Assembly: GCA_003280135.1 (NCBI GenBank)
Contig: QCFW01000001.1
Location: 62,001 to 126,000, forward strand
Source: Prochlorococcus sp. AG-363-N16
Lineage (GTDB): Bacteria > Cyanobacteriota > Cyanobacteriia > PCC-6307 > Cyanobiaceae
DNA length: 64,000 nucleotides
Direction: 5' to 3'
Under the pieces are notes generated by a model. It was not told the DNA's origin. It saw only the letters and a list, made by a program, of their open reading frames with translations, and ran no database searches. A program made the position numbers and the translations under genes. Of this stretch, positions 4,508 through 34,921 are shown piece by piece. Every line of letters begins with the position of its first letter. The stretch's first letter is position 1.

Positions 4508-4582
4508 AGTTTGCCCAATTATCGTGCTGCATCTTGGCTTATGAAATACATTTATATTGGTTTCTTGGGAAATAATCAGTAA

Positions 4583-4768
4583 TTAGCCTTCATCTTGAGG
4601 ATAAAAACTCCAAATAATGATTGCGATGCAAATGGCTATTGCAGTTAGCCCCATCCATCCCCAGAACTTGTTTTGAGTAAATAAATCAGTCAAAATAGAT
4701 TGTTCTTGATACTTCGATTCCATTTGATTTTGGTACGTATCAATGACTGATAATAGAAAATATTTCAT
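4583..4768 (-). CDS. Small single-pass membrane protein
   Basis: 61 residues, start ATG 4768. The N-terminal half is polar; residues about 36-55 (FWGWMGLTAIAICIAIIIWS) are one membrane helix, followed by FYPQDEG. No family recognised. The layout, a short tail-anchored protein, recurs many times to the right. Confidence 0.55.
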   Translation of the reverse strand: MKYFLLSVIDTYQNQMESKYQEQSILTDLFTQNKFWGWMGLTAIAICIAIIIWSFYPQDEG

Positions 4769-5672: not shown

Positions 5673-5744
5673 AGCGGATGACCAGATTCGAACTGGCGAC
5701 ATTCAGCTTGGGAAGCTGACGTTCTACCACTGAACTACACCCGC
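5673..5744 (-). tRNA. tRNA-Gly (anticodon CCC)
   Basis: On the minus strand a full cloverleaf can be folded: acceptor GCGGGTG / CATCCGC, D arm with AGTTCAGTGGTAGAAC, anticodon stem TCAGC / GCTGA around loop TTCCCAA, and T arm with GTTCGAATC. Loop positions 34-36 read CCC. The discriminator base is U, as expected for glycine; CCA is not encoded. tRNA genes commonly mark the edges of Prochlorococcus islands, and the flexible region begins here. Confidence 0.96.
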
Positions 5745-7171: not shown

Positions 7172-9922
7172 ATGAATGCTTTTGGGACAGAGCAAAAAGT
7201 TATTTCTTTATCGAGTAAAACGTTTGATAGTCTTAACTTTCCATATAATTTTTTAGAAACTTTTGGAATCGAGCGTTCAATTATAAAAAGTTTGCGTTTA
7301 GGTGATACGAATAAATCCGACATGGGAGGAGTTCTGCTGAAAAATCAAATTCATATAGCTGTATGCAACCTGGGACAGGTAAAAGAAACTTTTGAAGAGT
7401 TGAAAGAGAGTTCAGCTACCTCTAAGTTTCATGCGAAATATATCTTGGCTACAGACGGTTTTACTTTAAAAGCAGAAAACTTGCATTTAGATGAGAAAAT
7501 TTCATGCGATTTTTGCGAGCTACCTTTTTATGTATGGTTCTTCCTCTCAATTGCTGATTCGCCAATTGTAAAGAACGTTACTGGGAATGCATTTGATATG
7601 AATGCTATTCGACTTCTTAGTCAGCTTTATTTCGATTTAATAAAGATCAATCCTGAATGGGGAGTTCAAAAAAGTAGAGAGGATATGAATTACTTAATGA
7701 TGAGGTTAATTTTTTGTTTCTTTGCTGAAGATACAGGAATTTTAGGAATTAAGTCATTCTTTACTAGCACTATTAAAGAGATGACAGATAAAGACGCATC
7801 AAGCACTAATGAGATTATTACTAAAATTTTCAGGGCAATGAATACACCTAAGGAGCAACGCTTTAAGCTTAATTTGCCTAAATGGCTAGATCTAGTTCCA
7901 TATGCTTATGGAAACCTTTTTGCTGAAAATATTAAAGTCCCTGAATTCAATAAAAGTGCACGTGCATCCCTACTTAATGTAGGCAATCTTGATTGGAAAC
8001 AAATTAACCCTGATGTCTTCGGGATTATGATTCAGTTGATTGCTGGAGATGAGGAAAGGTCTTCTTTGGGAATGCATTACACAAGTGTTCCAAATATTTT
8101 AAAGGTAATCCGACCTCTTTTTATTGATGACCTGCTCCAGCAACTTAAAGAGGCTGGGACTAATCATCAAAAGCTTTTAAATCTAAAAAATAAATTGGCC
8201 AAAATAAGAATCTTTGATCCAGCATGTGGTTCAGGTAATTTCCTTATAACTTCATATAAAGAAATTCGTTTAATTGAAAATCAAATCAATCGTCGACTGA
8301 ATGTAGTGGCAGGTAAAACATTAATCCCTCTAACAAATTTCCGTGGCATTGAAATTAGAAGCTTTTCATCTGAAATTGCAAGGCTCGCATTAATTATTGC
8401 CAAGTATCAATGTGATGTTCTTTATTTTGGAAAAATTCAAGCCCTGGATGACTTTTTCACTCTCAATACAAGCAATTGGATAGTTTGTGGTAATGCCTTA
8501 ATCTTTGATTGGGTTACTATCTGCCCTCCATTAGGAACTGATTTCCAAGACTCGGTTGAGATTAACCATGATTTCAATAGCAAGGATGTAGGGGATGTAT
8601 ATATTTGTGGAAACCCTCCTTATAAAGGCAGTAAATGGCAAACAAAAGGTCAGAAATCTGCTCTAGCAAATGCTTGGCTCAATCATCCCAACTTAGCTAA
8701 GACTACTGATTTAGCTTCTGGTTGGATTGCTAAATATCTGCAGTTTTCGCAGAAAGTTACTAAGGTTACTGCGGCTTTTGTGACTACAAGCAGCCTTTGT
8801 CAAGGGCAGCAAGCCTCAGAGATTTGGCCTGTTATTTATAAATATGGACAAGAAATTACCTTTGCCTACAAGCCATTTGTATGGAGTAATTCAGCGGCTA
8901 ATAATGCAGGTGTAACAGTTATTATTGTTGGATTAGGAAAAAAATCTTCTGCCAGTAAAACTCTTTTCGAAAAAGACCAGAGACGTATATGCTCAGCAAT
9001 AGGACCTTATCTTGTGCCAGACTCTACTGACGTTGTTGTCAAATCAAACGTACCACTTGGTCAGCATGGGAGAATGTTTTTTGGGAATATGCCCAGGGAT
9101 GGTGGTCACTTAGTTCTTTCACCAGATGAGGTCACTGAAATAAGTAAAGATATAAAAGCATGTAGTTTTGTACGACCCTTTGTGGGAGCAAGTGAGCTTA
9201 TAAATGGTAGGAAACGATATTGCTTGTGGATAGATTATAAGAATGTAGACCAGGCAATGAGGCATCCCTTAATATCAGAGAAATTACGTCTTGTTGCAAA
9301 AAGTCGAAGAGATTCAAAGGCTAAGTCGACAAGGGATTTTGCTGATCGTCCATATCGCTTTGTTCAAATTGGAGGAGTCGCCAAAGAAAATGTAATTTTA
9401 GTAGCTGGTGTTAGCTCCAAGAAACGAGAATATTTGCCTGCAGATTATTTCAGTGATAATAGTATTTCTTCAAATAAATGTTTTGCTCTTTACGATGCTC
9501 CTCTTTGGAATTTTTCGTTAGTTGTATCAAGATTACATATGATTTGGATAAGTACAGTATGTGTTCGAATGAGGTCTGATTTCTCTTACTCAAATACTTT
9601 AGGTTGGAATACTTTCCCAATCCCTAAGCTTACGGAGGCTAATAAGGATGACTTGACCAGATCTGCAGAAAAGATTCTTTTAGTTAGGAGATCTTTTGCT
9701 CCTAGAACACTTGGGGACCTTTACGATCCTCAGAGAATGCCTTCTAGGCTTCGTGATGCTCATGAATACAATGATGAAACTGTTGAAAATATATTTATTG
9801 GCCGCCGCTTTCAAAGTAATAGTGAGCGCTTAGAAAAACTTTTTGAACTTTATAAAAACATTATAACAGCCTCAAAAGAGTCAATTCGAGGAGACAGATT
9901 TTACAAGAATCGAACGACTTAA
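7172..9922 (+). CDS. MmeI/YeeA-family adenine DNA methyltransferase, no nuclease domain visible
   Basis: 916 residues. Residues 20-130 match the MmeI N-terminal accessory domain (NFPYNFLETFGIERSIIKSL, then KYILATDGFTL). The catalytic core has AdoMet motif I FDPACGSGNF at 348-357, preceded by the GMHYTS helix at 300, and catalytic GNPPY at 480-484. The remaining 430 residues fit target recognition and a C-terminal domain. Type IIL/IIG relatives carry an Asp/Glu-x-Lys nuclease upstream of this start; here nothing precedes it, so it resembles methylase-only YeeA-like proteins. It would make N6-methyladenine at a specific sequence. No restriction partner is adjacent, though a PD-(D/E)XK-like protein lies at 14245. 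Confidence 0.88.
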   Translation: MNAFGTEQKVISLSSKTFDSLNFPYNFLETFGIERSIIKSLRLGDTNKSDMGGVLLKNQIHIAVCNLGQVKETFEELKESSATSKFHAKYILATDGFTLKAENLHLDEKISCDFCELPFYVWFFLSIADSPIVKNVTGNAFDMNAIRLLSQLYFDLIKINPEWGVQKSREDMNYLMMRLIFCFFAEDTGILGIKSFFTSTIKEMTDKDASSTNEIITKIFRAMNTPKEQRFKLNLPKWLDLVPYAYGNLFAENIKVPEFNKSARASLLNVGNLDWKQINPDVFGIMIQLIAGDEERSSLGMHYTSVPNILKVIRPLFIDDLLQQLKEAGTNHQKLLNLKNKLAKIRIFDPACGSGNFLITSYKEIRLIENQINRRLNVVAGKTLIPLTNFRGIEIRSFSSEIARLALIIAKYQCDVLYFGKIQALDDFFTLNTSNWIVCGNALIFDWVTICPPLGTDFQDSVEINHDFNSKDVGDVYICGNPPYKGSKWQTKGQKSALANAWLNHPNLAKTTDLASGWIAKYLQFSQKVTKVTAAFVTTSSLCQGQQASEIWPVIYKYGQEITFAYKPFVWSNSAANNAGVTVIIVGLGKKSSASKTLFEKDQRRICSAIGPYLVPDSTDVVVKSNVPLGQHGRMFFGNMPRDGGHLVLSPDEVTEISKDIKACSFVRPFVGASELINGRKRYCLWIDYKNVDQAMRHPLISEKLRLVAKSRRDSKAKSTRDFADRPYRFVQIGGVAKENVILVAGVSSKKREYLPADYFSDNSISSNKCFALYDAPLWNFSLVVSRLHMIWISTVCVRMRSDFSYSNTLGWNTFPIPKLTEANKDDLTRSAEKILLVRRSFAPRTLGDLYDPQRMPSRLRDAHEYNDETVENIFIGRRFQSNSERLEKLFELYKNIITASKESIRGDRFYKNRTT

Positions 9923-10174: not shown

Positions 10175-10888
10175 TTGCCACGCCTGATAATAAAAGTCCA
10201 ATGTAATATTTCAGTGTGCAATAAGGCAATCAAGAAGCTAGAATCAAATTTATATAGAATTAACACAAGAAATAGTAGCTATAAACTCAAGCTTAAGTTA
10301 TTAACTTTAAATCATGGTACTCATAAACAATGGTTAAAGGAAAACTTGCTTCCAAATACTAGGTTAATTATTGAGCCTAAAATAGCTGGATTGCCAGCCG
10401 TTCTTTTTTATAAGGAGGGTATCTTACGAAATATCATTATTCAAGAAAGTATTTTTAATGCTAATGATTTTAAAAGAATAAAGATTATACCTAATAAACT
10501 TGCAATAGATAAAGATATTGCTATTAGAGGTAATTTATATAATCCAAAATTAAAGTTACAAATAAACAGTACTATTAAACCTCAAAGAAGTCAGGAGCTT
10601 TTGCAACTAGAGAATCTTTCTTTTTGTCCTTATCAAATATGCAATTCAAACCAGAATCAATATCAAGTACTTTTAGGCCTAAAACAATTAGGCTTTGAGA
10701 TTCCGGAAACACATTTTACTATTTTTATAAATCAAGTAGATTTATACGTAAACTTATGGAAGGAAGGTAAATTATTTGAGAGTTATCCAGCAAATGGCAT
10801 TGTATTAAAAGTCAATTCAAGGAAACTTCAAAAACAGTTGGGTGAGAACAGCTTATGTCCTAATTGGGCTTTTTCTATTGAGTGCTAG
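10175..10888 (+). CDS. Degenerate NAD-dependent DNA-ligase adenylation-domain-like protein
   Basis: 237 residues from TTG 10175; no ATG is available in frame. The order of ligase A motifs is visible: EPKIAGL (67-73) for EPKLDGL, IRGNLY (117-122) for VRGEVF, YPANGIVLKV (204-213) for YEIDGVVIKV, a QLG pair, and WAFSIEC (231-237) for WAIAYKF. The adenylated lysine (K69) remains, but the motif I Asp is Ala71, the motif III Glu is Asn120 and the motif V Lys is Glu236. The OB, zinc, HhH and BRCT domains are absent. It is unlikely to seal nicks; nucleotide sensing or structural DNA binding is possible. The chain ends right after motif V. Confidence 0.72.
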   Translation: MPRLIIKVQCNISVCNKAIKKLESNLYRINTRNSSYKLKLKLLTLNHGTHKQWLKENLLPNTRLIIEPKIAGLPAVLFYKEGILRNIIIQESIFNANDFKRIKIIPNKLAIDKDIAIRGNLYNPKLKLQINSTIKPQRSQELLQLENLSFCPYQICNSNQNQYQVLLGLKQLGFEIPETHFTIFINQVDLYVNLWKEGKLFESYPANGIVLKVNSRKLQKQLGENSLCPNWAFSIEC

Positions 10889-13875: not shown

Positions 13876-14066
13876 TTTGAAGTTATTTTTATATTCATAA
13901 TTACATCTCTAGTGCTAATAGCAATAAATTTCTAGAATTAAGACATTAATCTAAAAATATCACTTGAGTTTTCTAGACAAGAAGTACCTTAAAGACTCCT
14001 AAATATGCCTGTACCTTTTTTAAGAGTCTTTATCTCTAAGGTTCACTTTGAGGCCATCTCATTAAT

Positions 14067-34847: not shown

Positions 34848-34921
34848 TCGGAACGGCGGGATTTGAACCCACGACCCCCACTACCCCAAAGTGGTGCGCT
34901 ACCAAACTGCGCTACGCCCCG
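34848..34921 (-). tRNA. tRNA-Pro (anticodon GGG)
   Basis: Minus-strand cloverleaf: acceptor CGGGGCG / CGTTCCG, D arm GCGCAGTTTGGTAGCGC, anticodon stem CCACT / AGTGG around loop TTGGGGT (34-36 = GGG), T arm with GGTTCAAATCC. Discriminator A; CCA not encoded. Confidence 0.96.

Follow-up and report, generated by a model that had tools for sequence, protein, structure and literature searches.

Stand-alone, catalytically altered LigA-type nucleotidyltransferase domain in Prochlorococcus and its picocyanobacterial family linked to phages and tRNA-integrated elements

Introduction

The first step of NAD+-dependent ligation requires subdomain Ia together with the nucleotidyltransferase (NTase) set of residues, and an OB fold is needed to complete ligation. 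In the window, that is, the whole stretch of 64,000 nucleotides from Prochlorococcus sp. AG-363-N16 analyzed here, one gene encodes a protein that shares with the LigA adenylation domain (PF01653; PDB 4glw, 1tae, 3jsl, and 7k72) the fold, the order of the motifs, the motif I lysine, and the glycine and lysine of motif IV. Compared with LigA, however, the window protein is without the Ia signature and without OB, zinc-finger, HhH, and BRCT domains, it differs at four active-site positions, and a full LigA of 705 aa is encoded separately by the host on another contig (G000:C2).

A NTase domain on a polypeptide of its own is also found in the phage-borne T5-like heterodimeric ligases, here represented by subunit A of Providencia phage PR1 (PDB 9hu3) and of Serratia phage Slocum. 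T5-like subunit A runs on into an OB fold (PF03120, 73-77 bits in two phages), whereas the picocyanobacterial family described below stops at motif V; the adjacent subunit B of the T5-like ligase has BRCT and weak zinc-finger matches. A preliminary description of the locus, made from its letters alone, knew of no system built on such a protein. None was found in the literature searched, but subunit A of the split T5-like ligase offers a precedent of closely similar architecture.

The LigA used in engineered NAD+ biosensors is catalytically dead and has a Lys-to-Leu change together with D289N (PMC10449634). We read D289 as the motif IV aspartate, which corresponds to the position of Asn207 in the window protein. 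The biosensor proteins keep Ia and the other pocket residues, whereas in the window protein Ia is degenerate and the equivalents of Asp117, Glu173, and Lys314 are changed as well.

Tycheposons are among the tRNA-integrated elements of Prochlorococcus. The likeness to such elements lies in the intact members of the family, which are located beside tyrosine recombinases at 44-45 bp tRNA-Pro(TGG) repeats; the window locus differs from such elements in that neither a tRNA repeat nor an element boundary was found there.

Results

The window gene, its predicted fold, and its active site

The gene and the parts of its product recognized by alignment are given below in window coordinates, with strand and basis.

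10175..10888, + strand: stand-alone LigA-type nucleotidyltransferase (adenylation) protein, catalytically altered (ORF, PF01653, AlphaFold, Foldseek)
10175..10252, + strand: what is left of subdomain Ia, its last helix (alignment column table)
10373..10390, + strand: motif I, E67-P-K69-I-A71-G72, with the nucleophile Lys kept and Ala instead of Asp (E. coli D117) (alignments, codons)
10526..10534, + strand: motif III, R118-G119-N120, with Asn at the site of Glu (E. coli E173) (alignments)
10793..10810, + strand: motif IV, N207-G208-I-V-L-K212, with Asn instead of Asp (E. coli D285) and Lys (K290) kept (alignments)
10880..10882, + strand: position of motif V, where Glu236 occupies the site of Lys (E. 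coli K314) (alignments)

The ORF at 10175-10888 on the + strand comprises 237 aa from a TTG start, and its reading frame is unbroken, as had been stated in the preliminary description. The other five frames across the same interval hold 15-30 stops each, and a run of 224 open codons has a chance probability of p ~7e-9 at the 29% GC base composition. The TTG start at 10175 is doubtful because homologues align best from GTG 10214, and judged by that alignment the latter codon, giving a protein of 224 aa, is more likely the start of the gene. Residues 1-11 have low confidence in the AlphaFold model.

The window protein scores 53.9 bits against Pfam PF01653, whose cut-off is 27 bits, with the match divided over two stretches, and is also matched by the NCBIfam LigA models, in agreement with its original assignment as a stand-alone, catalytically altered LigA-type domain. 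The AlphaFold model (pLDDT 81.7, pTM 0.81, from a 20-row alignment) retrieved LigA adenylation domains from the PDB by Foldseek with E-values down to 8.9e-15, and the family profile likewise matches LigA adenylation domains by sequence. For L161, an intact member from a phage, the model (pLDDT 88) predicts the same order of elements, together with two N-terminal helices where Ia is expected. The predicted structure confirms a nucleotidyltransferase fold for the window protein; a model unlike a nucleotidyltransferase, the contrary outcome named when the comparison with LigA was proposed, was not obtained.

Pfam matched none of the OB, zinc-finger, HhH, and BRCT domains in the window protein, and the NMN-binding Tyr/Asp/Tyr/Asp signature of Ia is absent in the alignment; the accessory domains are lost, as noted before, and the Ia signature is gone as well. 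Intact relatives mostly retain this signature, as Y-R...SD..FD. Residues kept relative to LigA are Glu67 (E. coli E113), Lys69 (K115, the nucleophile), Gly72, Gly208, and Lys212 (K290), as well as the stacking aromatic residue at the position of E. coli Y225. The full LigA catalytic set E113/K115/D117/E173/D285/K290/K314 is broken at four positions, with equivalents of D117A, E173N, D285N, and K314E, and the protein terminates one residue past Glu236. Retention of the nucleophilic lysine and the changes to Ala71, Asn120, and Glu236 had been recognized earlier and all three changes are real, but the list missed a fourth one, the motif IV Asp to Asn207.

The preliminary description also proposed that the protein might sense NAD+ and pointed to defence. 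A NAD+ sensor acting in an anti-phage defence system has a parallel in the dead-LigA biosensors (PMC10449634), and a gene directly upstream of the ligase-domain gene (7172-9922, + strand) encodes an MmeI-like type IIG restriction-methyltransferase. The NMN half of NAD+ is contacted by subdomain Ia, however, and since this subdomain is degenerate in the window protein, NAD+ sensing is unlikely. With respect to defence, the stand-alone ligase-domain family had no match in a PADLOC scan that covered the window protein, two of its relatives, and several neighbours, the neighbours vary between genera, and the MmeI-type gene was not matched by any same-locus counterpart in the congeners G001 and G002. 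A defence role was rejected on these grounds, the MmeI-type gene being local, and a defence-linked sensor is very improbable. Because the MmeI-type gene is unmatched at the locus in G001 and G002, the stretch that follows tRNA-Gly (5673-5744) resembles a flexible site of insertion.

Distribution of the family among picocyanobacteria

Stand-alone copies were identified in at least 66 of 300 picocyanobacterial genomes (the same family as the host), spanning 11 genera. The frames are mostly ~200-330 aa long, with up to five matches per genome, and all copies lack the OB fold, the sequence stopping at motif V. The window protein shares these features, being an OB-less NTase polypeptide within the ~200-295 aa range and kin to the phage and integrase-linked copies, and it shows up to 48% identity with its nearest family members. 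When 291 genomes were scanned class-wide, all matches outside the picocyanobacterial family, among the matches listed, were frames of at least 478 aa, and these are LigA-like, not stand-alone. A GTDB genome scan gave 540 relatives, a count that may include full-length LigA; the best 80 are Prochlorococcus or uncultured Synechococcaceae records, for example MIT 9401.

HL Prochlorococcus has one conserved copy with a complete catalytic set, which is under strong purifying selection with a dN/dS of 0.13 (30 sequences sampled of the 81 in the group). This protein of 249 aa is encoded at 5965-6714 of L081, with L054, L059, L060, L065, and L076 in the synteny group, and no assigned function for it was found in the literature searched. 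Our literature search likewise found no paper on such proteins in Prochlorococcus; a viral family of NAD-dependent ligases has been listed in low-light strains, without further study (PMC11357015).

Additional copies were observed in several genomes. A second altered paralogue of 200-210 aa, without Ia and with a low dN/dS of 0.135, is present in L042, L043, L046, L048, and L067, and lies ~4-5 kb from the first copy on the opposite strand in all five examined loci of this one genus. In G204, near-identical LigA-like copies occupy several sites (L070, L071, and L073), some of them near a DDE transposase, which suggests recent amplification. Genes related to DNA repair were found near several altered copies, including a SRAP-type gene (matched by profile in L037, while L040, L041, and L050 hold similar sequences), a SbcCD-like gene (L045 and L055), and a photolyase (L056); these look like a shared neighbourhood more than operons.

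Copies in phages and integrative elements

Intact versions of 239-280 aa are encoded by seven IMG/VR contigs (L157-L163). In L161 the ligase-domain gene adjoins genes for a helicase and a VapE-like primase, and the gene sets of L157-L160 are alike, with a gpA-type terminase also present in L160; in L162 a RusA resolvase gene directly follows the ligase-domain gene. L157-L161 are uncultivated phage contigs with a GC content of 0.31-0.34. L161 encodes a primase with 56% identity, over 57% of its length, to the primase of Synechococcus phage S-LBS1, a phage with an annotated integrase, and from this relationship we infer a cyanobacterial host for the phage contigs. It is possible that L157-L161 represent a marine lineage of integrase-bearing cyanosiphoviruses. 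A tblastn search of reference phages with the window protein gave only distant matches in Listeria and Enterococcus phages.

Aligned over 92-98% of the query, the phage versions share ~30% identity with T5-like subunit A, which would be in line with a subunit A of a T5-type split ligase that obtains its missing domains from a partner. T5-like subunit A includes the OB fold, however, and the cyanobacterial family ends before it. The same PF03120 model that finds the OB fold in the two T5-like subunits A gave no match in the cyanophage records holding L157-L163, which are possibly incomplete and two of which are 50-55 kb, and the window protein also lacks four of the active-site residues. With no OB fold in the protein or in the phage records, the assignment of the window protein as a split-ligase subunit A was rejected, and we regard it as hardly credible.

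Intact copies in chromosomes adjoin genes for tyrosine recombinases, in divergent orientation in L066 (151 bp apart) and L071 (46 bp apart) and with a 4 bp overlap in L068. The integrases were identified by Pfam matches in L068 and L071 and by kinship in BLAST clustering in L066. At these integrase junctions, 44-45 bp of the 3' end of tRNA-Pro(TGG) are repeated; in L068 the repeat at 4551-4594 and the tRNA at 13990-14063 enclose a 9.4-kb stretch. The same tRNA-Pro repeat lies beside an integrase in L047, ~2.6 kb from an altered copy, and VapE-like, DUF3987, or AAA_25 genes are close to several copies. In the genome G129 (L066 and L068), two integrase genes lie ~9.7 kb apart, and next to each of them are both a repeat of the tRNA-Pro(TGG) 3' end and a LigA-like gene, which suggests two elements in tandem at one tRNA. 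Neither the tRNA-Gly mentioned above nor the tRNA-Pro at 34848-34921 has a repeated copy of at least 14 bases in the window.

Selection on altered copies

Altered-type orthologues in one other genus are under purifying selection. The dN/dS ratio was 0.34 over 203 pairs of 22 such orthologues, 0.28 in five long loci of that genus, where neighbouring genes gave values of 0 to 0.35, and 0.18 (bootstrap 0.10-0.27) for the most divergent pair. The equivalents of Glu113, Lys115, Gly118, and Lys290 are invariant in all 22 sequences. In the same orthologues Asp117 is replaced by Ile throughout (22/22) and Glu173 by Val or Ile, while Asp285 is mostly Asn or Ser and Lys314 mostly Asn. Overlapping residues have been lost separately, with both lysines kept, in the copies of 200-212 aa (dN/dS 0.135) and in those of HL locus 2 (dN/dS 0.36, three pairs).

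The window gene is saturated at synonymous sites. Its differences by codon position from all relatives tested run 3rd > 1st > 2nd, and coding constraint has therefore acted on the gene, a pattern that does not gauge how strong the constraint is. The gene diverges faster than DUF2130, a larger neighbouring gene.

Tree position and history of the locus

In the tree, the window gene falls inside a clade of 19 rows (support 99/93). The motif I Asp is missing in every member of this clade, and all intact forms lie outside it. The motif I Lys is kept in 15 of the 19 rows and lost in four, and the motif IV Lys is present in 19/19. Several branches in the clade are long, that of the window gene having a length of 0.85, and the internal order is unsure. 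The genes flanking the window locus are common to other clade members. Since the flanks match on both sides in the congener G001, the gene is vertically inherited at this locus and not recently mobile. The same-locus orthologue in G001 is 40% identical to the window protein and has Ser at the nucleophile position; between the same two genomes the larger neighbours are 66-71% and the small flanking ORFs 43-64% identical. In the congener G002 both flanks are located on one contig and the gene itself is missing.

These observations bear on the earlier proposal that the protein adds AMP to something. An enzyme with altered chemistry would use the lysines of motifs I and IV to pass AMP from NAD+ or ATP to a protein or nucleic acid, in an AMPylation-like manner, and is consistent with the presence of Lys69 and Lys212 here and of their equivalents in 22/22 altered-type orthologues of one genus. 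The equivalents of Asp117, Glu173, Asp285, and Lys314 are nevertheless all changed, Ia is degenerate, and the four clade rows without the nucleophile include the same-genus orthologue, which makes such an activity improbable.

A further alternative is a decaying relic, i.e., a domesticated copy that has lost its function and drifts towards loss, so that the open frame is temporary. Loss of the gene in G002 with the flanks kept, Ser at the nucleophile in G001, the long branch, and the rapid divergence relative to DUF2130 all point in this direction, as do broken or fragmentary copies in other genera (G134 with five stops, G209 split over two frames, and fragments in G177, G053, and G028). Evidence against decay comes from frames that are open at orthologous loci in several genera, from dN/dS well under 1 in the 22 altered-type orthologues, from the order of codon-position differences between the window gene and its relatives, and from the parallel retention of two lysines, and we consider this alternative possible but somewhat doubtful. 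The preliminary view that selection keeps the gene holds in so far as purifying selection acts on orthologues that share the altered type; relaxed selection is also partly supported, some relatives being broken or lost.

Discussion

On balance, the window gene is probably a vertically inherited, fast-evolving pseudo-nucleotidyltransferase that derives from a stand-alone ligase domain of the mobilome and serves as a non-catalytic binder under weakened constraint. The ancestor would have been a stand-alone NAD+-dependent ligase adenylation domain, consisting of Ia and the NTase domain without an OB fold, a type that persists in intact form in cyanophages, in tRNA-Pro-integrated elements, and in Prochlorococcus chromosomes. 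To judge from their residues, intact members seem equipped for step 1 (Ia and the NTase set) but not with an OB fold. The ancestral protein may accordingly be pictured as moving AMP from NAD+ onto its own lysine, the first step of ligation, and, because it was without the OB fold, it would have been unable to finish nick sealing alone. The window protein would no longer perform this step-1 chemistry efficiently and may have been kept, with weakened constraint, as a non-catalytic binder of a nucleotide, a DNA end, or a protein, for which the retained pocket residues Glu67, Lys69, and Lys212 and the stacking aromatic residue would provide the contacts. Most likely the window protein either still serves in binding but no longer in catalysis, or is in the course of being lost.

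A more far-reaching scenario, which we consider unlikely, is that cyanophages and tRNA-Pro elements carry a minimal OB-less NAD+-dependent adenylyltransferase for recombination or packaging, which would adenylate a DNA 5' end or a protein, and that picocyanobacteria have repeatedly domesticated dead versions. With their substrate-binding lysines, these versions, the window gene among them, would act as decoys or dominant-negative partners against the same elements.

Stand-alone LigA NTase domains without an OB fold do not form a described class in the literature searched, and here they constitute a picocyanobacteria-wide family. The whole OB-less family and its repeated catalytic loss are of more interest than the single copy in the window, and the phenomenon is more general than a reading of that one sequence could show. 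The family is tied to cyanophages and to tRNA-Pro integrative elements, which are agents of gene exchange in Prochlorococcus, and it raises the testable question of what role a ligase domain unable to ligate may have, and why hosts retain dead copies of it.
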